A stretch of DNA of 41,138 nt from a virus, in the IMG/VR virus record IMGVR_UViG_3300017989_000206, positions 1-41,138 of that record; one strand, given 5' to 3'. Within the stretch, counting starts at the first letter, position 1; each line of letters begins with the position of its first letter. Both the position numbers and the translations under genes were made by a program. The notes below the pieces were generated by a model. It was not told the origin of the DNA. It worked only from the letters and a program-made list of their open reading frames with translations, and searched no databases. Of the stretch, positions 2,876-36,120 are shown piece after piece.

Positions 2876-3124
2876 ATGAATTGCCGAAAGGAAAATATAA
2901 CTGTTTTTAAGAGGGAGTACCCTGTATTGTCTGGTCCTTACTTCTTGTTTGAGCAAAATTTTTGGATAGACGAAAAAAGATATACCTATTCAATGCGTTA
3001 CAAAATAGACGTTTCGTTAGAGACAGCATACGATGATTTTTATAAATTAGCTGACTCATCTTATAGGAGACTAAAAGAAGAAAGGAATATGGGATGCCTT
3101 ACGCAAGGGGAGAAAAAGAGGTGA
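2876..3124 (+). CDS. Hypothetical protein, 82 aa
   Basis: Starts five bases after an AGGAGG and one base after the upstream stop. The protein is aromatic-rich and mixed alpha/beta (REYPVLSGPYFLFEQNFWIDEKRYTYSMRY), then a helical C-terminus (SLETAYDDFYKLADSSYRRLKEE). Its stop overlaps the GTG start of the acyl carrier protein as GTGA, so the two are likely coupled. No family recognised. Confidence 0.65.
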   Translation: MNCRKENITVFKREYPVLSGPYFLFEQNFWIDEKRYTYSMRYKIDVSLETAYDDFYKLADSSYRRLKEERNMGCLTQGEKKR

Positions 3125-3363
3125 ACCCAGAGAAAATTAAAGAAGATGTAATTGATATTATATGTGAAATAGGAACTCTTAACCCTCGTGAGATTCACGA
3201 CCATACTACTTTAGATCAGTTAGGGCTTGACTCTTTAGACATTACTGAAATCTCAATGGAAATAGAAAATCTTTACGAAATAAATCTTGATGAAATATCT
3301 ATCGCGGAATTAAAAGACCATACTCTGCAAAGCATCATTAACATAATAGAGGAGAAAATATGA
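3121..3363 (+). CDS. acpP-like: Acyl carrier protein
   Basis: An 80-residue acidic protein with the acyl-carrier-protein fold and the phosphopantetheine attachment motif LGLDSLDITEISMEIE (Ser38 from the GTG start). A helix-rich layout and an acidic recognition helix follow. Once the Ser receives 4'-phosphopantetheine it carries acyl groups in fatty acid, lipid A or related synthesis. I chose GTG 3121 because it gives the canonical ACP length, overlaps the upstream TGA as GTGA and follows GGGGAG at spacing 8. ATG 3094 would add nine residues. No other acyl-synthesis gene is in the window, so it must work with host enzymes, either feeding or titrating them. The family call is strong; the purpose is open. 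Confidence 0.88.
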   Translation: MNPEKIKEDVIDIICEIGTLNPREIHDHTTLDQLGLDSLDITEISMEIENLYEINLDEISIAELKDHTLQSIINIIEEKI

Positions 3364-4308: not shown

Positions 4309-4898
4309 TATGTATGGTTAATCCTAGCTAAAACTTGTACCTGAGTGTCATTAACCAGAAGAATCTCCCATTCAAAGGCATCATCTGTAGCACTTACTCC
4401 TGTCCATCCACTAGCATTGTTTATCATACTTGTGCGAATAGCATCAACATCCTCTGTTCCATTTTTATCAGTACAGGTTATTATTATGTCAGTTCTTATT
4501 GTTTGGCTTACTCCATCCTCTGTCTTTTCATCTTCTAATTCTAGTGATGCCGTTATCCCATCTGCCGTAAGGTCTGCAAGGATTTCTGCCATTAGGAGTG
4601 TGGTCTTGTTTGTTGATGCAGTTACAGTTTGTGATAGAGAGATATCTGTGTCTGTTCCATCAGCGTTTATTGCAGTGAAAAGGATTGTACCAGCAGCTAC
4701 AGTGCCTATCTTAGAGCCTAAAATAGAACCAGATGTGTAGGTGGTTCCAGCAGATAAAGTCATAGCAAAATCAACCCCATTTACTCTTACACTAACATAA
4801 GTTGGAGCATTGGCTATATCTACTGTGAATATTGTGCTTTCAGACGTTGTTATGTTGTTGTCTGACGTTGCTGGTGCTGATATTACTGGTACTGCCAT
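4308..4898 (-). CDS. Beta-rich virion-type protein, 196 aa
   Basis: A Thr/Ser/Asp-rich protein with no Cys-rich or membrane region. Residues 1-95 look like an immunoglobulin-like or similar beta sandwich (VRVNGVDFAMTLSAGTTYTSG, TILFTAINADGTDTDISLSQ). The rest has a helix (KTTLLMAEILADLTADGI) and more strands. It is the most downstream of the fibre/decoration-like genes. Composition and position suggest a virion or secreted surface protein; no family is recognised. Confidence 0.55.
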   Translation of the reverse strand: MAVPVISAPATSDNNITTSESTIFTVDIANAPTYVSVRVNGVDFAMTLSAGTTYTSGSILGSKIGTVAAGTILFTAINADGTDTDISLSQTVTASTNKTTLLMAEILADLTADGITASLELEDEKTEDGVSQTIRTDIIITCTDKNGTEDVDAIRTSMINNASGWTGVSATDDAFEWEILLVNDTQVQVLARINHT

Positions 4899-4930: not shown

Positions 4931-5632
4931 TTACTTTGCCACCTCTAGCCTTGAACCCATAGTGTTTGATTTGTAGTGAAAATCAACTTCTAATAAATAA
5001 ACGACATCATCATAGTTGTCTGCTACAGATGTGTCTCTTTCGAGCGAACAGATTAGCATACTTGATACGCCATCTATTCCGGAACCGTCCATAGAATCTT
5101 CAATTTCTCCTAAGTAATGCGTGTCTGCTGAAAGGTTTTGAACATCTATTGTGGCTGTTGCAGGAGTTGATGCTGGGAACGCATCTCCAATATTAGCCCA
5201 ACTGTATGTAAAATCCCACTTAACATTCTCAGCCCCAGCACCAGACCCTCCTGTCGGGAGTACATAGTGAATATGAAACTCTATATCACTTCCAAGCTCG
5301 TATCTGTGAGGCACTTGAACATTGAAATAAATCTTTTGATTTTGTATTTTTGAGAACGACAACACGCTACCGTCTCGATAAGAAGCAGACGATGGTGGAT
5401 TCGTAGAATCTAACTTAACTGCATTAGCAGGCGTTCTTAAATCGTCCCATACTGCTTGTGTAAGCTCTAATGTTTTTGCAGTTCCGCAGTCTAATACAAG
5501 GTCAGATGGGTTTACTAACCCTGTTTTAAGATTCATATCCGTTCCATCATAATAGGCTTCAACATCATTTCCTGTACCGAATATCAATTTAAGAAGGTCG
5601 TTAAACTTTCGCCTTAGATTACTAGACCTCAT
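4931..5632 (-). CDS. Fibre/decoration-type structural protein, 233 aa
   Basis: The N-terminus holds an anchor-like motif, FGTGNDVEAYYDGTDMNL (residues 18-35). A closely related GTGND...YDGT motif occurs in the beta-helix protein at 8618-10228. The remainder is beta-rich (QNQKIYFNVQVPHRYELGSDIEFHIHYV, then DDVVYLLEVDFHYKSNTMGSRLEVAK) and could form a jelly-roll-like domain. Its start overlaps the end of the upstream gene by 11 bases. I infer a virion surface or fibre-associated protein; no enzymatic motif is visible. Confidence 0.6.
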   Translation of the reverse strand: MRSSNLRRKFNDLLKLIFGTGNDVEAYYDGTDMNLKTGLVNPSDLVLDCGTAKTLELTQAVWDDLRTPANAVKLDSTNPPSSASYRDGSVLSFSKIQNQKIYFNVQVPHRYELGSDIEFHIHYVLPTGGSGAGAENVKWDFTYSWANIGDAFPASTPATATIDVQNLSADTHYLGEIEDSMDGSGIDGVSSMLICSLERDTSVADNYDDVVYLLEVDFHYKSNTMGSRLEVAK

Positions 5633-6635
5633 AAGCGTAACTCACTCCCTCTCCGTTTACTGATACATCGAAATATACTTTGTTCGTGTTATCAATATCT
5701 ATATCTAATGATTCTCCTGCTTGAAGCTCGTACCCATTAGCACTCGAAACTCCTGAGTTTCCAACATAGACAAGCCCTGTGTTTGAATTGAGAGCTTTAA
5801 CAGTTACAGATCTGATTGTGGTGTCGGATTTAATTACTACAGCACTTCCGGAGTTAGTCGTAGTTTTTCCATTTGCAAATGTAGAAGGCACTTCTAAGTT
5901 TAGATTGTCATAATCAATCTCGTTTCCGCTTGAATCGAAATTAGTAACTTTTAATTGGGTGTTTGAGTTGACACTAACTCCACTTTCAAGCTCTTCAAGG
6001 CTCATCTTTGCATTACCACTAGATGTACCTTGCATACTTGTATAGGTGTTTGCCGAAGTTCTAAGTTTAGGAATCGAGATATTCAACTCAGCATCATCTT
6101 GGTCGTTCAGGCTGTCTTGAAGGTTATGACTACTCCATTTTATGGGTTGCTTTTTGAGTATCGAATGAAGATGGAATGTTGTTTGGTCTGAGCCTCCGTT
6201 TGTATATACAATCCTATAATACTGTGCTTGAACAGGCGGTGTGAAGAATTTAGCCGTACTTGCTGGGATATCATATTCCTCACCATCGTGCCAATCGGTG
6301 TTATTAGATGAAAATTGAATAGCTAGCGTACCTGCAACGTCCGCTTCTACCAAAACCGTAATAGCCGAGTAAGCAAGTATATCCGTTCCTGTGCCTGTGA
6401 ATACTTCTGCCGCACTCAGTGGAGTGGTCGTGGAGTTATTCGTATCCGCCAGCCCTTGCATTACTGTATGGAGTTGACCTAGAGAATCAACTTCTGCTAC
6501 GTTTCCACTACTTCCCTCTAATTGGATTTTTCCAATAGTGTTTGGTCCCGATGGAATTGGTGCATCGATCTCTACTCTAGCTATCTTTTTAACGATAACA
6601 TCGATTGCTTTAGGGAATCTAAATACTGGAGGCAC
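5622..6635 (-). CDS. Virion-type beta protein with a shared C-terminal domain, 337 aa
   Basis: Starts at GTG 6635, six bases after AAGGG. The N-terminal part has DVIVKKIARVEIDAPIPSG and a discoidin/carbohydrate-module-like beta segment (TLAIQFSSNNTDWHDGEEYDIPA, about 105-128). The last 50 residues (VYVGNSGVSSANGYELQAGE to VNGEGVSYAYEV) match the second half of the exported protein at 10209-10553. That common module suggests the two proteins bind the same partner. It overlaps the O-antigen-ligase-like gene upstream by 17 bases. Probably a surface or fibre component. Confidence 0.6.
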   Translation of the reverse strand: MPPVFRFPKAIDVIVKKIARVEIDAPIPSGPNTIGKIQLEGSSGNVAEVDSLGQLHTVMQGLADTNNSTTTPLSAAEVFTGTGTDILAYSAITVLVEADVAGTLAIQFSSNNTDWHDGEEYDIPASTAKFFTPPVQAQYYRIVYTNGGSDQTTFHLHSILKKQPIKWSSHNLQDSLNDQDDAELNISIPKLRTSANTYTSMQGTSSGNAKMSLEELESGVSVNSNTQLKVTNFDSSGNEIDYDNLNLEVPSTFANGKTTTNSGSAVVIKSDTTIRSVTVKALNSNTGLVYVGNSGVSSANGYELQAGESLDIDIDNTNKVYFDVSVNGEGVSYAYEV

Positions 6636-7740
6636 TTGTGACCCTTTCTGATAAAGCTAAATAACACACCAATAATAAAGCCGTTTGTGTCATCCGTGTT
6701 GGAAAAGCAAAAAACATATTAGTAGCAAGACACGCCATCCCGGCTAATACTAAATACTGCCTTCTAACATAAAGCCTAATAGCTACTCTTGTGCAGTAAT
6801 AGGATATCAGTCCAAATCCAACCAATCCAATCTCCCAAAGAAATTGAAGCCAACAATTGTGAGCTTGAGGAAAAGGGTTGTAGTCGTGCTTATAAACAGG
6901 AAACAAAGGAAGATATGTGTCCATTCCGTGACCAAAGAAAAACCACTTCCAGTTAAAAGTCCCATATAGAAATGGTGCTACAGTAGACTTAGACGTATCG
7001 GTAAACCAAGTTATAAACGTAGCGTACCAAGAAGACATCCGACCTCCGCAACGAGGATCAATTGCACCTTGAAACGACCCAAAGTCATACATCGCATATC
7101 CTATAAAAGCTATCAAGCAAAGCGAAGCAATTAGAGGAAAGTATCTTCTATGAGTTAAAACTAAATAAAGAAACGTACCTACTAATAAAGAAACTGCAAA
7201 GCCAGAGCTTTTAGAAAGAATGCACAATATCCCAATTGGAATTATGTACCACTTGCTTCTTAGAATAAGAAACGGACTCAAGACTGCGAGCAACGAAGAT
7301 AGCCTCATATATTGCATTACTGTGCCTAAGAAGACCTTTTCGGGTCTATCAAAGTTTAAAAGAGTGTCTTTACCAAGCAATTGCATTGAAACAATAACAA
7401 GTTGAAGCAAAAAGGCGGCTTCTAATATGTTGTAAATAATCTTCTTTTCGACCTTCTGGAATAAAAGATAAGCGTACACACTAGCAACAACTAAAGCGTA
7501 CGCGTTAAAAGACAAGTAAGGGGCTTGGCTAAAGAAGCAAGCCCCAAACAAGTAGACTACTAACGCCTTAATAGACCAATGTAGAGATTGGCTCATAAGG
7601 AACATTCCGAACATTCCAGCAGCCACCATTAGATAACACCAATGGAAGCTGTTGACAAACATTGGAATGTTGTACCCAATAGGAGGGGCTACAATCAAAA
7701 GACCGAGGCATACTCCTATAAGGTACGAAAGTAATTTCAT
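6619..7740 (-). CDS. O-antigen ligase/polymerase-like membrane protein (Wzy_C type)
   Basis: 373 residues with about ten hydrophobic membrane segments. A large periplasmic-type loop lies near residues 215-300, and the characteristic late motif AHNCWLQFLWEIGLVGFGLI is found at about 300-320. This HN...E.GL.G block is the signature region of Wzy_C proteins (WaaL O-antigen ligase and Wzy polymerases), which join or polymerise undecaprenyl-linked glycans at the periplasmic face. RGxxS-like loop residues are also present (CGGRMSSW). It lies inside the fibre gene cluster with end-to-end overlaps on both sides, so it is an established operon member, not a recent insert. Likely role: altering the host surface glycan, for example for superinfection exclusion. 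The family is well supported; the substrate is unknown. Confidence 0.78.
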   Translation of the reverse strand: MKLLSYLIGVCLGLLIVAPPIGYNIPMFVNSFHWCYLMVAAGMFGMFLMSQSLHWSIKALVVYLFGACFFSQAPYLSFNAYALVVASVYAYLLFQKVEKKIIYNILEAAFLLQLVIVSMQLLGKDTLLNFDRPEKVFLGTVMQYMRLSSLLAVLSPFLILRSKWYIIPIGILCILSKSSGFAVSLLVGTFLYLVLTHRRYFPLIASLCLIAFIGYAMYDFGSFQGAIDPRCGGRMSSWYATFITWFTDTSKSTVAPFLYGTFNWKWFFFGHGMDTYLPLFPVYKHDYNPFPQAHNCWLQFLWEIGLVGFGLISYYCTRVAIRLYVRRQYLVLAGMACLATNMFFAFPTRMTQTALLLVCYLALSERVTSASSI

Positions 7741-8306
7741 TACGCTACCGTTGAATCACCACTACCAATAATAACCCAGCCTACTGTAGAATCAACGAAA
7801 AGCATCGTTACAGACTCTTGTGCAGCATCTAAAGTAACAGTTGTGAAACCTGTTGCAGTATCTGGTGTGATAATCCAAGAACCGCCAGACTCTTGTAAGA
7901 TGTTTACAAAAGTAATCATCTGACCAGAAGTACCGTTGTCCAAACGAGTACCACCATCGGTTTCATCTAAACCACCAGCACCGCCGACACGCTTTTGGAT
8001 TACAGCATAAGCAAGCTGAGTAGTTCCAATAGGTGTAGAAGATGATTGCATAATCAACGTACCATTGCCATAGCGACCATTAGCAAGAAGATTAGTTCTA
8101 AATGTTAAGTCACCAGTAGTATCAGCGTTGTTTGGTGTAACATTAGCCTGACCGTTTGCAGCAGACGCTACTGTTGAGTTAATAAAGTTTAAGCGTCTTG
8201 TCTCACCGCCAACTTTAGTGCCGTCATCATATACAGTTAAAGCAAAAGCCAAGCTAGGTGCTAACACCAAAGCAAGAACTAGAGCCAAAATTCCTAATTT
8301 TTTCAT
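7740..8306 (-). CDS. Sec-signal beta-rich exported protein, 188 aa
   Basis: Begins with a textbook signal peptide (MKKLGILALVLALVLAPSLAFA, cleavage after AFA at 22). The mature part is a Thr/Gly/Asn-rich, beta-strand-prone domain (NTTGDLTFRTN-like strands, SGQMITFVNILQES, ESVTMLFVDSTVGWVIIGSGDS). Fibre proteins are normally assembled in the cytoplasm, so the signal is remarkable. The product should reach the periplasm or outer surface. It is adjacent to a lipoprotein gene and to the O-antigen-ligase-like gene. No enzymatic motif or family is recognised. Confidence 0.65.
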   Translation of the reverse strand: MKKLGILALVLALVLAPSLAFALTVYDDGTKVGGETRRLNFINSTVASAANGQANVTPNNADTTGDLTFRTNLLANGRYGNGTLIMQSSSTPIGTTQLAYAVIQKRVGGAGGLDETDGGTRLDNGTSGQMITFVNILQESGGSWIITPDTATGFTTVTLDAAQESVTMLFVDSTVGWVIIGSGDSTVA

Positions 8307-8322: not shown

Positions 8323-8628
8323 TTAAACTTGTTTCAAACTTAAATTATTCCAACCCTTGCCATTGCAATTTGTATCTTCATAATCTCCGCATAACCAAGC
8401 CACGCAATCGTGCTTGTCAACACCGTTTGTCTGAAGGATTAAGTAAACCTCACATCCTTCAGTTTTTAACTCACAAGCAAGTCTCTTTGACTTCTCTGTG
8501 CAATCGTATAAGTGATTCCCACAAAATGTCTTGTCTTGCTCTGCTTCTAATACTTTAGTATACGCCCTCTGCTCGATTGACTGACAACCGAGCAAAAGGA
8601 ATATTAGAAGAATGAGACTATATTTCAT
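8323..8628 (-). CDS. Cys-rich lipoprotein, 101 aa
   Basis: ATG 8628 follows AGGAAG closely and gives a lipoprotein signal peptide with a clear lipobox (IFLLLGC, Cys15). The mature chain has seven or more further cysteines (FCGNHLYDC, LACELKTEGCEVYLIL, HDCVAWLCGDYEDTNC). The order Cys, a helix, strand, His, then Asp/Asn loosely resembles small transglutaminase/papain-like hydrolases, but this is only a pattern impression. Disulphide bonding and outer-membrane anchoring are the safer inferences. Its start overlaps the 3' end of the beta-helix gene. Possibly a superinfection-exclusion or envelope-modifying protein. Confidence 0.6.
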   Translation of the reverse strand: MKYSLILLIFLLLGCQSIEQRAYTKVLEAEQDKTFCGNHLYDCTEKSKRLACELKTEGCEVYLILQTNGVDKHDCVAWLCGDYEDTNCNGKGWNNLSLKQV

Positions 8629-10228
8629 AGCTTCCTGATACGTACAAAGCAAACGCTTGGTCATCTACTGTGTTCGACCAATTTAAAAATTTAATCTTAT
8701 CGTCTGTATCTACATAGGCTTGCGGATTAGTCCAAGTTGCATTGACTTTTTCTAATCCAGCTACAGGAGTTATATAATTCCCAGCAGTTACGGGCATTGT
8801 AATTTCTAACCCAGTAGCCGCACCATTGGGGTCAGCGGTTGCTGTTTCAAAAGAAAAGAATAAAACATTATCTATTATTCTATATCTAGCAACAGTAGAA
8901 AGACCAGCGGGGGTGTCTCCCGCCCAAGTCAATGTAGGAGTGAATGAAGCCCAAGGCTGATTACCTGTTACCGTTCCACTGAAAGCACTTGTTTCGGTTA
9001 CATAGGTTGTTCCGTATGCGTTAAAGGTTGTGCTTGCGTCACTCTTAACGTCAGAAGTTACACCGCTATAAGTACCGTTGTAGTCGTTGACGGTGATTGT
9101 TCCTGATGTTGTCCTTCTAACATACAAGCCTATTTCATTACCGCTTGCACCTGTAGCAAAGCCAGAGCAGTCATACAAGTTGATAGTCATTCCTGTAGCA
9201 CCTCCGTTTGTGTGAAGTGAGTACGCATACCCTGCGGTTGCCGCCCCAGATGCAATAGCTTTGACGTTATAAAAATTCCAAGTCATAGCCGATGTCGATG
9301 CTGAAGATTCAACAAAACCGAAAGACGCAACATAAGAACCAGAAGATGTTCCATTTACTGTTACATTTCTAACTGTTCCGCTTACGTTAGTAAACTGCAC
9401 AACACCATTAGACGCATTGGCATTTGACCAAGTGATGTCTAAATCTTCTAAAACGATTCCAGTAATATTTCCGCTACCAAACAGAATCCCGTCAAGATTA
9501 TTGCCTGTTGATGTGTAGCTTAAATTTGCTATTCTTACGTTACTTGCTGTTATATTTGTCATCGAAGCGTTTGTAGACGAAAGGATTGTTTTTCCAACTC
9601 CTTGACCTACGATATTCAAAGCCTTGCTTACTGTGAACCCTCCTGCTGACAAATCATACGTTCCGCTTCCAAGGACTAGGGTGTCACCTGCTGAAGCGTT
9701 TGTGATATAAGTTCCGATGTTAGCTCCAACAGGAACAAAAATCAAATTAGTCTCATCGCTGTACATAGCACCATCAGAACCTAAACGCAGTCCAAACTTT
9801 GAAGTGTCGGTGTTGTAGATTCCGAGGTTTCCCCCTCCTGCAGCACCAGAGTCAGCCGCAGACGTTACAGTCCACTCATCACCGCCTGTTCCAGTAGAGT
9901 CTAGCGAGAGTTGAACCCCAGCGGCGTTACTTCCTATGATGCTCTGTGCTTCGATTTCAGCAGTAACTACTCCAAAATAACCAGAACCGACCGCCTCTGG
10001 ATACATCAAAAGATTTGTGCCATCGTATGATAAATACGAATCGTTACCTGTTCCGAGATAAATCTTTTTGCTGTCTAAAAGATGAATATCTCCACTTACA
10101 TTCAAATCCCCATTAACATTACGAGGATTACGAGACACGCTAGAGGTCGCACCTTCTGCAATAGGAGCAAAAAGCAGACCACCGATACAGAGAAAAGCTA
10201 ATATTTTTTTAGCGGTTTTGCCAGTCAT
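8618..10228 (-). CDS. Exported beta-helix tail-spike/fibre-like protein, 536 aa
   Basis: Starts with a Sec-type signal (KKILAFLCIGGLLFAPIAEG, about residues 7-26). Next come a GTGNDSYLSYDGT anchor motif near 58-70, then a parallel beta-helix region (about 165-400). That region has pectate-lyase-like coils: NIGTYITNASAGDTLVLGSG, then repeated NVRIANLS and GIVLEDLDI patterns. A C-terminal fibre-tip domain follows (WASFTPTLTW...ARYRIIDNVLFFSFETA), as found in many phage receptor-binding proteins. Beta-helix proteins of this kind bind or cleave surface polysaccharide. The signal peptide is unusual for a virion spike. It overlaps both neighbours. Confidence 0.7.
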   Translation of the reverse strand: MTGKTAKKILAFLCIGGLLFAPIAEGATSSVSRNPRNVNGDLNVSGDIHLLDSKKIYLGTGNDSYLSYDGTNLLMYPEAVGSGYFGVVTAEIEAQSIIGSNAAGVQLSLDSTGTGGDEWTVTSAADSGAAGGGNLGIYNTDTSKFGLRLGSDGAMYSDETNLIFVPVGANIGTYITNASAGDTLVLGSGTYDLSAGGFTVSKALNIVGQGVGKTILSSTNASMTNITASNVRIANLSYTSTGNNLDGILFGSGNITGIVLEDLDITWSNANASNGVVQFTNVSGTVRNVTVNGTSSGSYVASFGFVESSASTSAMTWNFYNVKAIASGAATAGYAYSLHTNGGATGMTINLYDCSGFATGASGNEIGLYVRRTTSGTITVNDYNGTYSGVTSDVKSDASTTFNAYGTTYVTETSAFSGTVTGNQPWASFTPTLTWAGDTPAGLSTVARYRIIDNVLFFSFETATADPNGAATGLEITMPVTAGNYITPVAGLEKVNATWTNPQAYVDTDDKIKFLNWSNTVDDQAFALYVSGSYEI

Positions 10229-10553
10229 AAGTCACTCCATCCCCATTGACAGTTGAGTCAATGTAAATTTTAAGAAGGTTATTGCTTTGTTTTGTAATCG
10301 TGTAGCAGTCTCCAGCATCTAATGGAATCCCCTCACGAGTAGCAAGAGAAGCAATGACTCCACTATCACCAACCACGATAGTTCCCGTATTGTTTGTCTC
10401 TGCACAGATCGTGATAATATCTACGCTTTGATTTGTTCCTAGAGCTACGGCAGTTCCAGCTGTCGTAACAACTTTTCTTCCGCACCCTTCATCTGCGAAT
10501 GCTACGCCACACACGAGCATTACAGCTATTAAAATTAATAATACTTTTTTCAT
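10209..10553 (-). CDS. Small Sec-exported protein sharing a fibre domain, 114 aa
   Basis: A strong ribosome site (AGGAGGATAAA) and a canonical signal peptide (MKKVLLILIAVMLVCGVAFA, cleaved before DEGCG). The mature 94 residues form a compact beta module (TIVVGDSGVIAS...IPLDAGDCYTITKQS...LKIYIDSTVNGDGVTYDW). The module is related to the C-terminus of the protein at 5622-6635. Shared landmarks are VG(D/N)SGV, L.AG, and VNG(D/E)GV.Y. It probably acts with the neighbouring exported beta-helix protein; catalytic function is not apparent. Confidence 0.68.
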   Translation of the reverse strand: MKKVLLILIAVMLVCGVAFADEGCGRKVVTTAGTAVALGTNQSVDIITICAETNNTGTIVVGDSGVIASLATREGIPLDAGDCYTITKQSNNLLKIYIDSTVNGDGVTYDWQNR

Positions 10554-10563
10554 TTTATCCTCC

Positions 10564-12936
10564 TTAAAATAGCATTCTTGTAAAAATGTGTGTGTTGGAT
10601 TTATCTCCTAACCCTAATTGACCAGATGCTCCATACCCACAAGTAAAAACCGAACCATCAGTATAAAGAATTAACAACTGCCCATAATTTCCGTAACCAA
10701 CTGCACAGATATCAGAAATTTCTGGATTTGCCGAACTTCCAAATAATGTTTGTAGGCTAGACACAGCTGTAAAGCTTGTAAGGTTTGTAGTGTTTCCTTG
10801 TCCTAACTGACCATTACCGTTATATCCGGAAACATAAACATCATCAGATGAATTATGGAAGGCTAATGCAGAGTTTCTATTGTTTCCACCACCAAAGAAC
10901 ACGCCTTTGGTTATTCCAGAAAGGCTAGGGTTGTATGGAGTAGCCTGTCTTGCTGTCCCAGCAGTTCCGCATTGACCTAGAGAATTATAACCCCAAGTCC
11001 TTACTGTGCCATCTGTTAGAATAGCCGCCATCGTACCACCGCTAACATAACCATCGCCAATTACGGTAGAAACAGTTGTCATACCAGATATTGTTACAGG
11101 GGTCGTTCTGTCTGTAGTTGAGTTGTCTCCAAGTTCAGATTGAGAGTTTTCACCCCAAGCGTATAACTGTCCAGAACCGATAGCAAAAGAAGAAGCTCCT
11201 AATGCATATACGTTAAGACAGGTGATTCCGACTACTTGAGCAAATGTATTTGTTGCTGTAGTAGAACCATCTCCCAACTGACCCCCTGCGTTTTGACCCG
11301 CCGCGTAGACCTTTCCCGCAAGAGTACAATACAATGCGTGACCAGAAGAAGATATGGAAGCTTCTGCTATAGCTGTTGTCGTAGAGCCAGTAGCGATTTG
11401 AACAGGACTTGTCTTGTTAGAATTATCCCCTTGTCCTAAAGCACCAGATACGTTGTATCCCCAACCATATAAGGCATTAGAAGTTGAAGACGATATGCTT
11501 ACTGCTGTTGCTAATACCGTAATATTTGAAGTAGCACCTTTTTGAAGATAAACAGAAGTCCACTTATAACCTGCTGGTTTTGGAACTTCTGTGAATGTTT
11601 TTCTAGTTGTTGTGTCCCCAACTCCAAGCTGACCGTAAGCGTTTGCACCACAAGCATATAAACTGCCATCGGTATTTAAAATAAACGTACAGTCGTATCC
11701 TGTATAAACCTTTACTCCGTTGATTGTGTTTTTCTTGTAAATAGAAATAGGAGTCTCTCTGTCTGCATTTATATTACCAACTCCAAGTTGAAAAGATGTG
11801 TTGTCTCCACATCCCATAACAGTACCATCTTCCATAACAAATGCAGAATACTCTAATGTCGTGCCACCTCTTAATGGAAGACTTTCTGCGAATCTTCTTG
11901 AATAAGAACCGTTACTGTATCTGGTTTTTACTGGCTCTTGTGGACTTATGTTATATTCGCTTAAAGACAACTGGGTAGCAACTCTTACGACAAAAGAACC
12001 CTCTGCTGTTGGGGCTGTCCGAGACAAACTTCCTGCTGAAGAATCGCTTAGCCACAAATTAGCATTCGTGTACGTTCCACTATCAGAAGACATCTTTGCG
12101 TACCCGGCTACAGTTAATTCAAACGTATCAGCATCGATAACTTTACTAACAACTCCAGCAACTCTAGCCGTAGTCAAAGAGTCTGCTTTTGCTTTTGCGT
12201 AGTCTGATGCCACAATAGAACCGGTTTTTGATTTAGCATAAAGAACGTCTCTTTCTGAGAAACTGTGACCTGTCTGAGTTACTTGAATCACACAAGATTG
12301 AGAGTTTTGAATAGTCCAAGTCCCTGCTGTTGCACAGATATAAAGCGTAGCTACATCTTGTGCGAAATAGATATCCCCTGCTGTAGGGCTTGTAGGACGG
12401 TCTGCTAACGCACCAGTTCCGATAGTTGAAGGATAGGTTGTCTCCGTGGTTGAGATCTCAGCGTTCTCTAAAGCAGTCTCTCCAGCGTTCCAACGTAGGT
12501 ATTTAAGAGCTTCTGGGGTTGGAATATCTGTTGAATACCCAGCGGTTTCTACGTCTGTGCCTAGAGGATAAGAGAAAGTTCTGTCTTGGGCTTCTGCTAT
12601 TTGCTGAATAACTGCCATATCCTTGTCAAATGAATCCTCTACTACGTCAGCTTTGAATCCAGAGCTTGTAAGATAATCAACGGCTTGTGTTCTTGGTACA
12701 GACCTTCCAATAATAACATAATAGTCGCTTGAAGGAGCCACAGTGAACTCAACAGTTCCACTAGTGTCTACAAGGGTTGTTGTAAAACCAGTAGTTTGAA
12801 GCGTTTGGACTCCAGTTGAAACATCCTCAAAATATACGATGATGCAGTCTGAGTTCAGTCCATCCCAATCGAATGTAAACGTAGTGGTTACGCCATTTCC
12901 TAGCGTTCTTGTTGGTTGATAATTGTCCGAAATCAT
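10564..12936 (-). CDS. Tail fibre with T7 gp17-like N-terminus and RCC1 beta-propeller
   Basis: 790 residues. Residues 1-125 match the T7 tail-fibre attachment domain: FTFDW, GRSVPRTQAVDY, FKADVVEDSFDKDMAVIQQIAE. A linker and beta modules occupy about 125-350. From about 355 to the end there are roughly eight RCC1/ATS1-type repeats (for example YACGANAYGQLGVGD, YGWGYNVSGALGQGD, YVSGYNGNGQLGQGN, FTCGYGASGQLGLGD). These should close into a beta-propeller. The propeller is the likely receptor-binding tip. RCC1 folds are uncommon as phage adhesins but occur in bacterial surface proteins. Good ribosome site (GAGGTGATGAG). Confidence 0.85.
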   Translation of the reverse strand: MISDNYQPTRTLGNGVTTTFTFDWDGLNSDCIIVYFEDVSTGVQTLQTTGFTTTLVDTSGTVEFTVAPSSDYYVIIGRSVPRTQAVDYLTSSGFKADVVEDSFDKDMAVIQQIAEAQDRTFSYPLGTDVETAGYSTDIPTPEALKYLRWNAGETALENAEISTTETTYPSTIGTGALADRPTSPTAGDIYFAQDVATLYICATAGTWTIQNSQSCVIQVTQTGHSFSERDVLYAKSKTGSIVASDYAKAKADSLTTARVAGVVSKVIDADTFELTVAGYAKMSSDSGTYTNANLWLSDSSAGSLSRTAPTAEGSFVVRVATQLSLSEYNISPQEPVKTRYSNGSYSRRFAESLPLRGGTTLEYSAFVMEDGTVMGCGDNTSFQLGVGNINADRETPISIYKKNTINGVKVYTGYDCTFILNTDGSLYACGANAYGQLGVGDTTTRKTFTEVPKPAGYKWTSVYLQKGATSNITVLATAVSISSSTSNALYGWGYNVSGALGQGDNSNKTSPVQIATGSTTTAIAEASISSSGHALYCTLAGKVYAAGQNAGGQLGDGSTTATNTFAQVVGITCLNVYALGASSFAIGSGQLYAWGENSQSELGDNSTTDRTTPVTISGMTTVSTVIGDGYVSGGTMAAILTDGTVRTWGYNSLGQCGTAGTARQATPYNPSLSGITKGVFFGGGNNRNSALAFHNSSDDVYVSGYNGNGQLGQGNTTNLTSFTAVSSLQTLFGSSANPEISDICAVGYGNYGQLLILYTDGSVFTCGYGASGQLGLGDKSNTHIFTRMLF

Positions 12937-19367: not shown

Positions 19368-19823
19368 TTATTTTTCTTCTAAATCAAGAATGTACTGCGT
19401 TTCCATTGGAGCATAACCAAGCTTTTTGTAAAACGCTTCCAACTTTTCTTTTTTGCTGTTATGCATCAAAACCATAATCATTTTTAAAACACCCATAGCT
19501 TTCAGCTTTTTCTCCATAGCCTTATAAAGTCTTACCCCACCACTTCTATTCTCTTTATAAACATACCAAATTATCTCCTGCCATACATACTCTCCAGAAT
19601 ATGCTGGTTGAGCTAAAAAACCTGATATGACACCTTTAACTTTTCCTTCTTCTAACAATACAAGTGTTGTTTTCTTGCATTTAAAAAACATTTCTTCCAT
19701 TTTGCTTACATCAGTATCTACTCCATAATCTGAGAGTGTTTCTTTGTGAAAAACTTTAACAAGCTCCATAAGTTCTGGTAGATGCTCGTTCTTAACTTCT
19801 TCAATCTTATATTTCTTGTCCAT
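19368..19823 (-). CDS. GNAT-family acetyltransferase
   Basis: 151 residues with the GNAT fold order: an N-terminal helix pair, strands around LVLLEEGKVKGVISGFL, a strand EIIWYVYKENR, then RSGGVRLYKAMEKKLKAMG (the acetyl-CoA pyrophosphate loop and helix, about 92-111). The C-terminal EAFYKKLGYAPMETQYI follows, a typical GNAT ending. It would transfer an acetyl group to an amine; the acceptor is unknown. It is lodged between tail tubular B (17-base overlap) and the gp14-like gene. Other podoviruses carry acetyltransferases among structural genes, possibly to modify virion or host proteins. Confidence 0.82.
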   Translation of the reverse strand: MDKKYKIEEVKNEHLPELMELVKVFHKETLSDYGVDTDVSKMEEMFFKCKKTTLVLLEEGKVKGVISGFLAQPAYSGEYVWQEIIWYVYKENRSGGVRLYKAMEKKLKAMGVLKMIMVLMHNSKKEKLEAFYKKLGYAPMETQYILDLEEK

Positions 19824-21840: not shown

Positions 21841-22469
21841 TATAATTTCTCAGTGATTGTAGGGTCTGTCGAATATCTAGCTAGTTTAAATTTGCTTTGG
21901 TTTATTCTTATCGGCATACTCTCCTGAGAGTCTATTCCAGCAGATTGAGCCTTCTTGCTGTTAATAACTTTTTCAATCAATGTCTGCTTCTGTAAGTCTT
22001 GTGTAATCTCCATATTAGCAACATAAGCTAAGTACCAAGAAAGACCCTCAACAAACTCTGGTGTATACTTTGTTGTGTCGGTTATATCTTTAACAAATCT
22101 TAATGGTAAATATATATTATCATCATCGTCTGTAGAATAATCGTCTGTAAGAATCCAACCACCTTCGATTGAGTATGTATTTTGCTTATACTTTATTTCC
22201 CCAAAACCAAGAACTCTTATACAGTCTGACGGATATGCAAATCTGGCTGAATAACCAAACTCAGGAGTTTCTGCATCTTTAGCTATTTTTCTACGAGTTT
22301 TGGCAAATGAAGGCATAAGCTCTTTAAGAGCTAATCGTCTTGAAGCATCCCACCACTTAGCGAATACAAATTCAGCTGGCTTTTTAGGAGAGTCAATGTC
22401 CTCTATTGAGCTTTTGTTCCCTAACCTAGAAAGAGCTAAATTACAAATAGAGTTTTTAGAAATACTCAT
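21840..22469 (-). CDS. Tail tubular protein A-like (adaptor), 209 aa
   Basis: Starts MSISKNSICNLALSRLGNKSSIEDID and contains KWWDASRRLALKELMPSFAKTRR at about 39-61. This is the conserved front half of T7 gp11-type adaptor proteins that bind the portal from below. A strand block follows (FAYPSDCIRVLGFGE), then helices (SWYLAYVANMEIT). It overlaps the nozzle gene by one base, the usual pair order. A strong class assignment. Confidence 0.87.
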   Translation of the reverse strand: MSISKNSICNLALSRLGNKSSIEDIDSPKKPAEFVFAKWWDASRRLALKELMPSFAKTRRKIAKDAETPEFGYSARFAYPSDCIRVLGFGEIKYKQNTYSIEGGWILTDDYSTDDDDNIYLPLRFVKDITDTTKYTPEFVEGLSWYLAYVANMEITQDLQKQTLIEKVINSKKAQSAGIDSQESMPIRINQSKFKLARYSTDPTITEKL

Positions 22470-22478
22470 AACTACTCC

Positions 22479-22714
22479 TTAGTTTTTAAAATATTCCCAA
22501 GCAAATCCTGCGTGAGAATTTCTTTTTCTTAAACAGCATTTAGAAATGTTTCCTTGTTTGAACCCTCCTCTTTGAGCATCCATCATACTATCCCAAATCC
22601 TAATTGTTTGTTCCGCTTCTCTTTGTTTTTAATATGGTACTCATTATAATAAATAGAAAGCTTTTCCTTATTTTTTTCTCTATACTCTTTGGAATATAAA
22701 GCTCTACTTTTCAT
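22479..22714 (-). pseudogene. Frameshifted homing-endonuclease-type remnant (NUMOD-like)
   Basis: The minus strand holds a 43-residue frame (22583-22714) starting MKSRALYSKEYREKNKEKLSIYYNEYHIKNKEKRN. It is a Lys/Glu helix of the kind seen in phage HNH proteins. One base shift near 22607 opens a second frame ending at 22479 that reads IRIWDSMMDAQRGGFKQGNISKCC then HAGFAWEYFKN. That second part matches NUMOD/IENR1 DNA-binding repeats of homing endonucleases (IxxWDSxxxA...ISxxC...GFxWxY). The nuclease core is missing. I read it as a decayed homing endonuclease or its DNA-binding tail between DUF5659 and the tail adaptor. Confidence 0.55.
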
Positions 22715-22725
22715 ACATATCTTTC

Positions 22726-22950
22726 TCACACATTATGCACAATGACTTTTAAATCCATAACAGCATTTTTGTAATCGGTTATGCCAATTTTCCCATTATT
22801 AAAATAACTAATAATATCTTCTCTAAGCTCCGCATCATCAACAAAAGAAAAAATACACTTGCCACTAAAACTCTTAAACCTTATAAACCACCCTTTAGCT
22901 TTTAAAAAAGCTGCTAGGCTTAAATCTGTTGTCTCATATACTTCTTGCAT
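22726..22950 (-). CDS. DUF5659-like small protein, 74 aa
   Basis: The sequence (YETTDLSLAAFLKAKGWFIRF at 5-25, KCIFSFVDDAELREDIISYFNNG, then YKNAVMDLKVIVHN) has the features of the DUF5659 family. Those are a leading TxDLxLAAFL helix, a FxF strand and a C-terminal DLK helix. These proteins recur in phage structural and replication clusters without known function. It lies immediately downstream of the intrinsic terminator at 22962-22998, so it needs read-through or a separate promoter. Confidence 0.6.
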   Translation of the reverse strand: MQEVYETTDLSLAAFLKAKGWFIRFKSFSGKCIFSFVDDAELREDIISYFNNGKIGITDYKNAVMDLKVIVHNV

Positions 22951-22961
22951 TTCAATTCCTC

Positions 22962-22998
22962 AAAAAAAATGGGGGATGAACCATACAGCCCACCCCCC
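22962..22998 (-). terminator. Rho-independent terminator after the capsid genes
   Basis: On the minus strand, an 8-bp G-rich stem (GGGGGGTG / CATCCCCC with one G-U pair, 12-base loop) is followed by A and eight T's. It lies 16 bases after the stop of the 169-residue virion protein. This is the clearest intrinsic terminator in the window and would cap a very abundant capsid transcript. Confidence 0.85.
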
Positions 22999-23014
22999 AA
23001 AGTTTAGATTCTGA

Positions 23015-23524
23015 TTAGTGAGCCATATCAAGTTCAATATCGAAATCTAATGTTCCATCAGCAGTACCAGCTGTGTTAAGTGTCATACAAAGATGAACAC
23101 CACCAGCAGGAGCTGTTTCGGAAGTTAGACTCAATAAATCACCGATAGTTTCACTCTTGTCTAAAGTTATGTTAGTGCCAAGAATGTCAACGCCATAAGA
23201 AGAAGACGCAGCATCAAAGTCATAACCATCGACTAGAGCATCAGCATCAAGTGCATCACCCAAACCTTGACCGTCTGCATCAGCAGACTTATAAAAGCCA
23301 ATGTCATAATCAGTTGCAGCAGTAATAGCTGTCCAACCAGCAGGCAAACTAATCCTTTTGACAATAGTGTCAATAGGAAGGTTTCGAGCTAGGATAACAA
23401 CATCTCCATCGTTCCAAGTGCTAAGCACAGAAACAACAGCGTTTACTACTTGACGTTTTTCACCCTGATTATAAGAAGGGCGGCTCGGTGCTGAAGTATA
23501 ACCAGCAGTTTGTCTAGTTGCCAT
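23015..23524 (-). CDS. Capsid-associated virion protein, 169 aa
   Basis: A Thr/Asp/Ala-rich beta protein (DGDVVILARNLPIDTIVKRISL at about 39-60, then several DADAL/DFDAAS loops and a strand-rich C-terminus TLDFDIELDMAH). It comes directly after the major capsid gene in the same transcript and just before a strong terminator. That is the usual place for an abundant head decoration or accessory protein. Similar small virion proteins exist in other podoviruses, but I cannot name the family. Confidence 0.6.
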   Translation of the reverse strand: MATRQTAGYTSAPSRPSYNQGEKRQVVNAVVSVLSTWNDGDVVILARNLPIDTIVKRISLPAGWTAITAATDYDIGFYKSADADGQGLGDALDADALVDGYDFDAASSSYGVDILGTNITLDKSETIGDLLSLTSETAPAGGVHLCMTLNTAGTADGTLDFDIELDMAH

Positions 23525-35368: not shown

Positions 35369-35650
35369 ATGTTAAAGAAACTATTCGACCACGAACTCAA
35401 GCTAAGAACGTACGAGATTCGCAAGCATATATGGATAGATTGGAAATCCCTAGAACTAGGACAAATTGATGCTGAGGGCTATCAAGATATATCTGTTTGG
35501 TTTGAAATAGGAAACGCTGAAATCAAGGGTGAGTTTCAAAAGTGTGGGCGAAATATTGAATGGTTTGATTTTATCTACGAAGGCGAGTCTATAAGACTGA
35601 CCGAGCCTTACATAAATGCTCTGGAACAAGCTCTGGAGGATATACGATGA
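35369..35650 (+). CDS. Hypothetical protein, 93 aa
   Basis: First gene after P2, with GAGGATATTGAA upstream. It is a soluble mixed protein rich in Trp, Glu and Ile (RKHIWIDWKSLELGQIDAEGYQDISVWFEIGN, GRNIEWFDFIYEGESIRL) ending in an acidic helix (INALEQALEDIR). It overlaps the transglycosylase start as ATGA. No family is recognised. Confidence 0.6.
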   Translation: MLKKLFDHELKLRTYEIRKHIWIDWKSLELGQIDAEGYQDISVWFEIGNAEIKGEFQKCGRNIEWFDFIYEGESIRLTEPYINALEQALEDIR

Positions 35651-36120
35651 TAAACATTAAAAATATTGGCAGTAAATCTTCTAGGAGAGCTTCTGGAGGA
35701 CGTATGAGGATATTACTAGGACTTTGCCTAATCTTTATCACATCTAACGCTTATGCTCTCGATATGACAGCTATTGCCACTATAGAGTCTAGCAACAACC
35801 CAAAAGCAATTAGCTACAAAGGGGCAAGCAGTGGTAGGGGCTTGTACCAGATTTCTGAAATCCTTTTAAAACACTATAACCAAGTACACAAAACAAACAT
35901 AAAGAGCGAAGAGCTATTTACTGCTGATGTGAACGAACGAGTAGCGATATGGTACATAGGTTGGTTAGAAAAACGACCTTATGTGGAATCTGATGAAGAT
36001 ATTTTGATTGCATATAATTGGGGATACGGTAATTTAATAAAGTTTAAAAAAGGTAAACGTAGTCTACCTAAAGAAACAAAAGACTACATAATAAAATATA
36101 GGAGATTAACAAATGTGTGA
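35647..36120 (+). CDS. Secreted lytic transglycosylase-like protein (copy 2)
   Basis: An SLT-type muramidase, 157 residues. From the internal ATG 35704 it has a clean signal peptide (MRILLGLCLIFITSNAYA) and catalytic-type Glu28 in TIESSNNP, then GRGLYQIS and AYNWGYGN. ATG 35647 has the better ribosome site (GGAGGA, spacing 6) and overlaps the previous stop; ATG 35704 has GGAGGA at spacing 3. Two starts could thus be used. It is a clear paralogue of the protein at 59-610, without that protein's insert. Early position and export suggest a role in entry, host wall remodelling or lysis timing. Confidence 0.85.
   Translation: MINIKNIGSKSSRRASGGRMRILLGLCLIFITSNAYALDMTAIATIESSNNPKAISYKGASSGRGLYQISEILLKHYNQVHKTNIKSEELFTADVNERVAIWYIGWLEKRPYVESDEDILIAYNWGYGNLIKFKKGKRSLPKETKDYIIKYRRLTNV

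Follow-up and report, generated by a model that had tools for sequence, protein, structure and literature searches.

A WaaL-fold membrane enzyme and a small exported protein appear to form a mobile two-gene cassette in podovirus-type phages

The window, i.e., the whole stretch of DNA that we analyzed, is a 41,138-base virus record of a podovirus-type phage. Its genes include those for the small and large terminase, portal, major head protein and tail tubular proteins A and B, as well as a DnaB helicase, ERF, YqaJ and RusA. The window proteins tested showed no integrase. Searches for tRNA and Rfam RNA were negative, and promoter and terminator scans gave results at chance level. The features that matter most for our analysis are as follows:

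5622..6635, minus strand: 337-aa neighbour on the downstream side, at most fibre-like (DUF6385 match below cut-off, E 2.1e-5)
6619..7740, minus strand: WaaL-fold / Wzy_C membrane enzyme, 373 aa (Pfam, fold match, invariant residues)
7740..8306, minus strand: exported partner, 188 aa, with a signal peptide, a serine cluster at about residues 79-97 and a GLDETDGGTRL motif (homologue upstream of the enzyme in 8 lineages)
8323..8664, minus strand: lipoprotein-type gene, probable outer spanin (lysis), outside the cassette (PHROG 6073, Rz-like spanin, E 4e-4)
22469..23015, minus strand: interval between decoration and tail tubular genes, the cassette site in close relatives (here an 80-aa gene and small ORFs)

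The first-pass annotation had described the ORF at 6619-7740 as an O-antigen ligase/polymerase homologue that carries a characteristic motif and overlaps both of its neighbours. The ORF exists in this form: it begins with ATG, its residues 293-305 are AHNCWLQFLWEIG, and it overlaps the upstream gene by 1 base (TAATG, in which the partner's stop overlaps the enzyme's start) and the downstream ORF, which has a GTG start, by 17 bases. Its product is predicted to have about 12 helices. The further statement that the gene lies between fibre-like genes holds at most for the downstream side, where the DUF6385 match is below its cut-off; the upstream gene is the exported partner. The downstream product gave zero tblastn matches in relatives, and its gene is outside the cassette there.

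The first-pass annotation had also proposed an HMM search and a structure prediction. The Pfam family Wzy_C (PF04932) matches residues 167-312 of the enzyme over model positions 4-148 of 149, with an E-value of 2.9e-4 and a score of 21.1 bits, which falls below the curated cut-off of 31.7 bits. Relatives with 36-48% identity match Wzy_C independently, and one of them (L018) scores above the cut-off, at 34.0 bits. Because relatives match independently and the predicted fold matches WaaL, the match is not due to chance. All of these relatives come from IMG/VR contigs: two scans of genome contigs revealed no bacterial relatives, a plasmid search gave zero relatives, tblastn with the enzyme against isolate phages gave zero matches, and the enzyme's sequence profile had only chance-level matches among PDB sequences. 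Between the enzyme genes of two relatives (L003 and L004), dN is 0.087 and dS is 0.96; the resulting dN/dS of roughly 0.09 means that the gene is under purifying selection.

For the structure prediction, we used an AlphaFold model built on nine relatives (pLDDT 76.3, pTM 0.78) in place of an earlier three-sequence model, which was dropped (pLDDT 51). The best PDB match is the O-antigen ligase WaaL (7TPG), with a Foldseek probability of 1.00 and an E-value of 5.9e-3; the alignment has a VIA Z of 17.1 and an rmsd of 4.6 over 295 residues. A fold search of BFVD returned only a weak match, to a protein of Arthrobacter phage Faja (E 0.096). The next fold matches after WaaL are FtsW and RodA, with Z of 9.6-11.8, and they raise the idea of a GT-C-type enzyme that acts on another lipid-linked substrate, e.g., peptidoglycan precursors, and contributes to lysis or wall damage, in keeping with the spanin-like gene that adjoins the pair in the window. 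We regard this idea as improbable, given that the WaaL match is far higher and extends over the whole chain, that the cassette lies away from lysis genes in relatives, and that the HX10G and GR..W motifs of the enzyme are of the Wzy_C type.

The conserved residues are consistent with this fold assignment. Of all Arg and His residues, only R146, R234 and H294 are invariant among ten enzyme homologues. H294 and G305, both invariant in the aligned homologues, form the motif H-N-x2-L...G305 (HX10G), so that the enzyme has the invariant His in an HX10G motif, preceded by Arg, that is typical of the Wzy_C superfamily. Essential residues have been established as R215/R288/H338 in E. coli WaaL and as R224/R298/H349 in N. 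meningitidis PglL (PMC3643930), and R146/R234/H294 fit this Arg/Arg/His set by order and motif context. The correspondence rests on motif order and fold, because hhalign of the enzyme family against E. coli WaaL alone gave nothing. Membership in the O-antigen ligase/polymerase superfamily has support from three sides: the profile match, the fold and the conservation of catalytic-type residues. The same residues bear on whether the protein could be an inert decoy or inhibitor that binds the host's lipid-linked glycan or blocks the host ligase, leading to superinfection exclusion. Some phages do encode inhibitors of the host polymerase, e.g., D3 iap, which is annotated near wzy-beta. However, R146, R234 and H294 are invariant even though overall identity falls to 33-40%, and this conservation and the dN/dS of about 0.09 make a decoy the least probable of the explanations that we considered.

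The gene upstream of the enzyme encodes a protein whose signal peptide, recognized by inspection, is MKKLGILALVLALVLAPSLAFA. This partner has zero Pfam or PHROG matches, and tblastn against isolate phages also gave zero matches. A serine-rich stretch is common to all partners, e.g., QSSSTPIG in the window and GASTVSSSSTALAP in L019. In 10 alignment columns, serine makes up 0.52 of residues, and the maximum reached in 5000 column shuffles was 0.47. The density of Ser and Thr combined is less striking, as it was reached by 113 of the 5000 shuffles. Descent of the partner from a head-associated protein of the relatives was tested and is unsupported.

Genes before the partner also carry signal-peptide or lipoprotein leaders. 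The leader of the spanin-like gene contains a lipobox-like LLGCQS, as read from the sequence. Directly upstream of it, two genes (8618-10228 and 10209-10553, minus strand) both begin with signal peptides, and the 536-aa protein of this pair has the look of a beta-helix. Together with the cassette, the signal-peptide proteins at 8618-10553 make a block of exported late proteins. Such a block is odd for virion fibres, which assemble in the cytoplasm. Beyond it lies a fibre-like protein (10564-12936, minus strand) with RCC1-type repeats in its C-terminal half (PHROG 4219, E 7.6e-50).

Elsewhere, the window encodes an acyl carrier protein (3094-3363, plus strand; PF00550, E 1.8e-9) and, near the contig's two ends, two similar SLT-type transglycosylases with leader peptides (59-610 and 35647-36120, plus strand). 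The structural block contains a GNAT acetyltransferase (19368-19823, minus strand; E 3e-5). An ORF of similar appearance adjoins the terminase in L001 (4631-5056), and in L019 and L021, ORFs of similar size come after tail tubular B. In L018, the frame of a tail tubular B-type protein (10494-12893, plus strand) starts with a signal-peptide-like leader.

Homologues of the partner lie directly upstream of the enzyme in eight lineages, namely the window, the L001 type, L016, L017, L018, L019, L020 and L028. Of 32 contigs covered by whole-contig profile searches, 13 contained the enzyme and nine the partner, which never occurred without the enzyme; the partner is absent from all 19 contigs that lack the enzyme. 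When IMG/VR was scanned separately with the partner by itself, every contig recovered also carried the enzyme. Absences are soft, because many contigs are fragments. Two contigs (L003 and L004) begin at the enzyme gene and therefore say nothing about the partner, and the near-identical contigs L067 and L068 stop short of the cassette region and so say nothing about its presence. In L021 (about 7859-7990, plus strand), the partner is cut to a 42-aa signal-peptide ORF and the enzyme is intact, which is a natural uncoupling of the two. L022 lacks the partner and retains the enzyme only as a C-terminal remnant (4533-4838, plus strand; model positions 269-369); since relatives have the full cassette at this place, a recent loss is probable.

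The enzyme-partner pair occupies three genome positions among the eight distinct lineages. In the window it follows the fibre and spanin-like genes, in L001 it sits between the terminase and portal genes, and in L016-L022 and L028 the cassette site is flanked by the decoration and tail tubular genes. In most relatives, the cassette is in the head-to-tail gene block, not in the fibre region. In relatives without the enzyme, the decoration and tail genes are neighbours, separated by no more than one or two small genes. Four of the relatives (L019, L021, L022 and L028) carry the enzyme or its remnant at a site that matches 22469-23015 of the window, where the window has no cassette. The head protein of L020 is 72-75% identical to those of L016 and L017, whereas its enzyme is closest to that of L021 (60%), with which its head protein shares 17% identity. 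The correlation of pairwise distances is 0.91 for enzyme and partner, compared with 0.45 for enzyme and head protein and 0.53 for partner and head protein. In view of these correlations and the L020 pattern, the two genes appear to move as a unit among phages whose capsids are unrelated. Judged by sequence comparison, then, enzyme and partner appear to be a conserved, mobile and coupled two-gene cassette.

Enzymes of the WaaL/Wzy_C fold take a glycan carried on undecaprenyl pyrophosphate and pass it to an acceptor on the periplasmic side of the membrane. The acceptor is the LPS core for WaaL, another glycan for Wzy, and a protein for PglL and PilO. Simple sequence searches cannot separate WaaL from PglL (PMC3643930), and gene context is informative in bacteria, where 21 of 31 PglL homologues adjoin a gene for a pilin-type acceptor and where linkage to an exported protein guided the discovery of true acceptors (PMC3643930). 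Because linkage has revealed acceptors in bacteria, the exported partner is the first acceptor candidate, and because it is so tightly linked, a protein acceptor is at least as likely as LPS. The linkage expected of a protein O-oligosaccharyltransferase in the wide sense (the PilO/PglS kind) was found, in that a candidate acceptor gene lies upstream in eight lineages and moves with the enzyme. We therefore tentatively favour, at a little short of even chances, a periplasm-facing lipid-linked-glycan transferase that has the partner as its acceptor, comparable to ComP-PglL and PilA-PilO. With slightly more reserve, we propose the fuller version, in which a WaaL-fold oligosaccharyltransferase and its dedicated exported acceptor would be a mobile phage pair for protein O-glycosylation among podovirus lineages, diverting the host's lipid-linked glycans late in infection.

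We infer what the enzyme does, its donor and acceptor, when it acts and how the phage benefits as follows. The enzyme would reside in the inner membrane with its WaaL/Wzy_C fold, catalytically competent and with its active site toward the periplasm, and would be made together with the small exported partner from the coupled cassette, probably late in infection. The donor would be a host glycan linked to undecaprenyl pyrophosphate, i.e., an O-antigen, capsule or common-antigen unit. This glycan would be joined to one of the serines in the partner's conserved serine-rich stretch, much as PglL and PilO glycosylate pilins. Once glycosylated, the partner would have a role in the envelope; alternatively, diversion of the glycan would leave the dying cell with a thinned or altered receptor. 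Against an acceptor role, the partner is not a pilin and is without known relatives, and a serine cluster can be structural. In addition, the enzyme may have another acceptor, because in L021 it is intact beside a partner reduced to its signal peptide.

It could instead be that the enzyme is a surface-glycan ligase or polymerase, which joins or re-links host O-antigen or capsule units on the LPS core or the lipid carrier, and that the resulting late change of the receptor blocks superinfection or stops progeny from sticking to debris, with the exported partner helping to regulate, anchor or bind the product. The enzyme's fold is nearest to WaaL, L021 retains the enzyme beside a mere remnant of the partner, and phage Wzy_C polymerases that alter O-antigen or capsule are proven or well supported, i.e., D3 Wzy-beta (PMC4815439) and Acinetobacter Wzy2Ph (PMC13228068). 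The PglL_A motif (PF15864) was missing in hmmscan of six members to an E-value of 0.1 and of six proteins to an E-value of 1; PilO is also without this motif (PMC3643930). Because L021 has a truncated partner and PglL_A was not found, we give this LPS or capsule reading nearly equal weight, i.e., we consider it about one chance in three or slightly better. However, ligase or polymerase activity alone leaves unexplained the linkage of the partner in nearly every case, its co-movement with the enzyme (r 0.91) and the fact that it is never found alone. Known serotype-converting genes act in lysogens, and no integrase was detected among the tested proteins of the window. Receptor remodelling, superinfection exclusion and debris avoidance, as suggested in the first-pass annotation, are possible roles of the enzyme.

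Phages alter host O-antigen as lysogens, and phage Wzy_C enzymes are already known, e.g., D3 Wzy-beta. We found no pairing of a phage enzyme with an exported acceptor in the literature, of which our coverage was partial. What had been a single odd gene is now upgraded to a conserved, mobile two-gene cassette. Its location in the head-to-tail block of phages without a sign of lysogeny would imply that the rewiring of lipid-linked glycans during infection may extend to virulent phages. Should the partner prove to be the acceptor, the cassette would be a virus-encoded protein glycosylation system that draws on glycans of the host. This would matter for receptor masking, and also for glycoengineering, a field in search of new oligosaccharyltransferases with their own acceptors.

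Among known systems, WaaL of Cupriavidus metallidurans (7TPG) shares with the enzyme its fold over 295 residues, the Arg/Arg/His set, the Wzy_C profile, about 12 helices and a large loop that precedes the helix after the His. It differs in that identity in the structural alignment is 12%, and in that the enzyme is phage-encoded outside any LPS locus and is tied to an exported partner. PglL, PglS and PilO (TfpO) share the superfamily, the catalytic residues and direct gene linkage to an exported protein (ComP-PglL, PilA-PilO; PMC3643930). In contrast to these, the enzyme has no PglL_A motif that we could find, its partner is not a type IV pilin, and its activity is only predicted.

The D3 Wzy-beta group (PMG1, phi297, PP9W and VarioGold VG_p25) resembles the enzyme in being phage-borne Wzy_C proteins near tail-fibre or lysis genes, with an essential His in an HN...G motif. 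The essential residues of D3 Wzy-beta are Arg254, Arg270, Arg272 and His300 (PMC4815439). The enzyme does not belong to this family by sequence: tblastn against phages gave no match, hhalign of D3 Wzy-beta against the enzyme family gave a probability of 0.3%, and BLASTP (E 3.9) aligned only the HN...GLxGF motif, leaving no detectable sequence relation. D3 and VarioGold also differ in being temperate; there, the gene lies outside the structural block and is of the lysogenic-conversion or moron-like kind. Acinetobacter Wzy2Ph is a phage-borne Wzy_C protein linked with a tailspike; it serves prophage capsule conversion, and the portion of the source that we consulted describes no exported partner (PMC13228068). 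The suggestion that such an enzyme is unusual in a late fibre cluster must therefore be narrowed, given that wzy-beta lies 2.5 kb behind the tail-fibre gene in D3 and that wzy lies near a tailspike depolymerase in Acinetobacter prophages (PMC13228068). It stands insofar as the Wzy_C genes of D3, VarioGold and Acinetobacter are genes of temperate phages. In VarioGold, a signal-peptide gene lies directly upstream of VG_p25 (PMC9658991), as the partner does here, which hints that the partner is perhaps part of a wider pattern.
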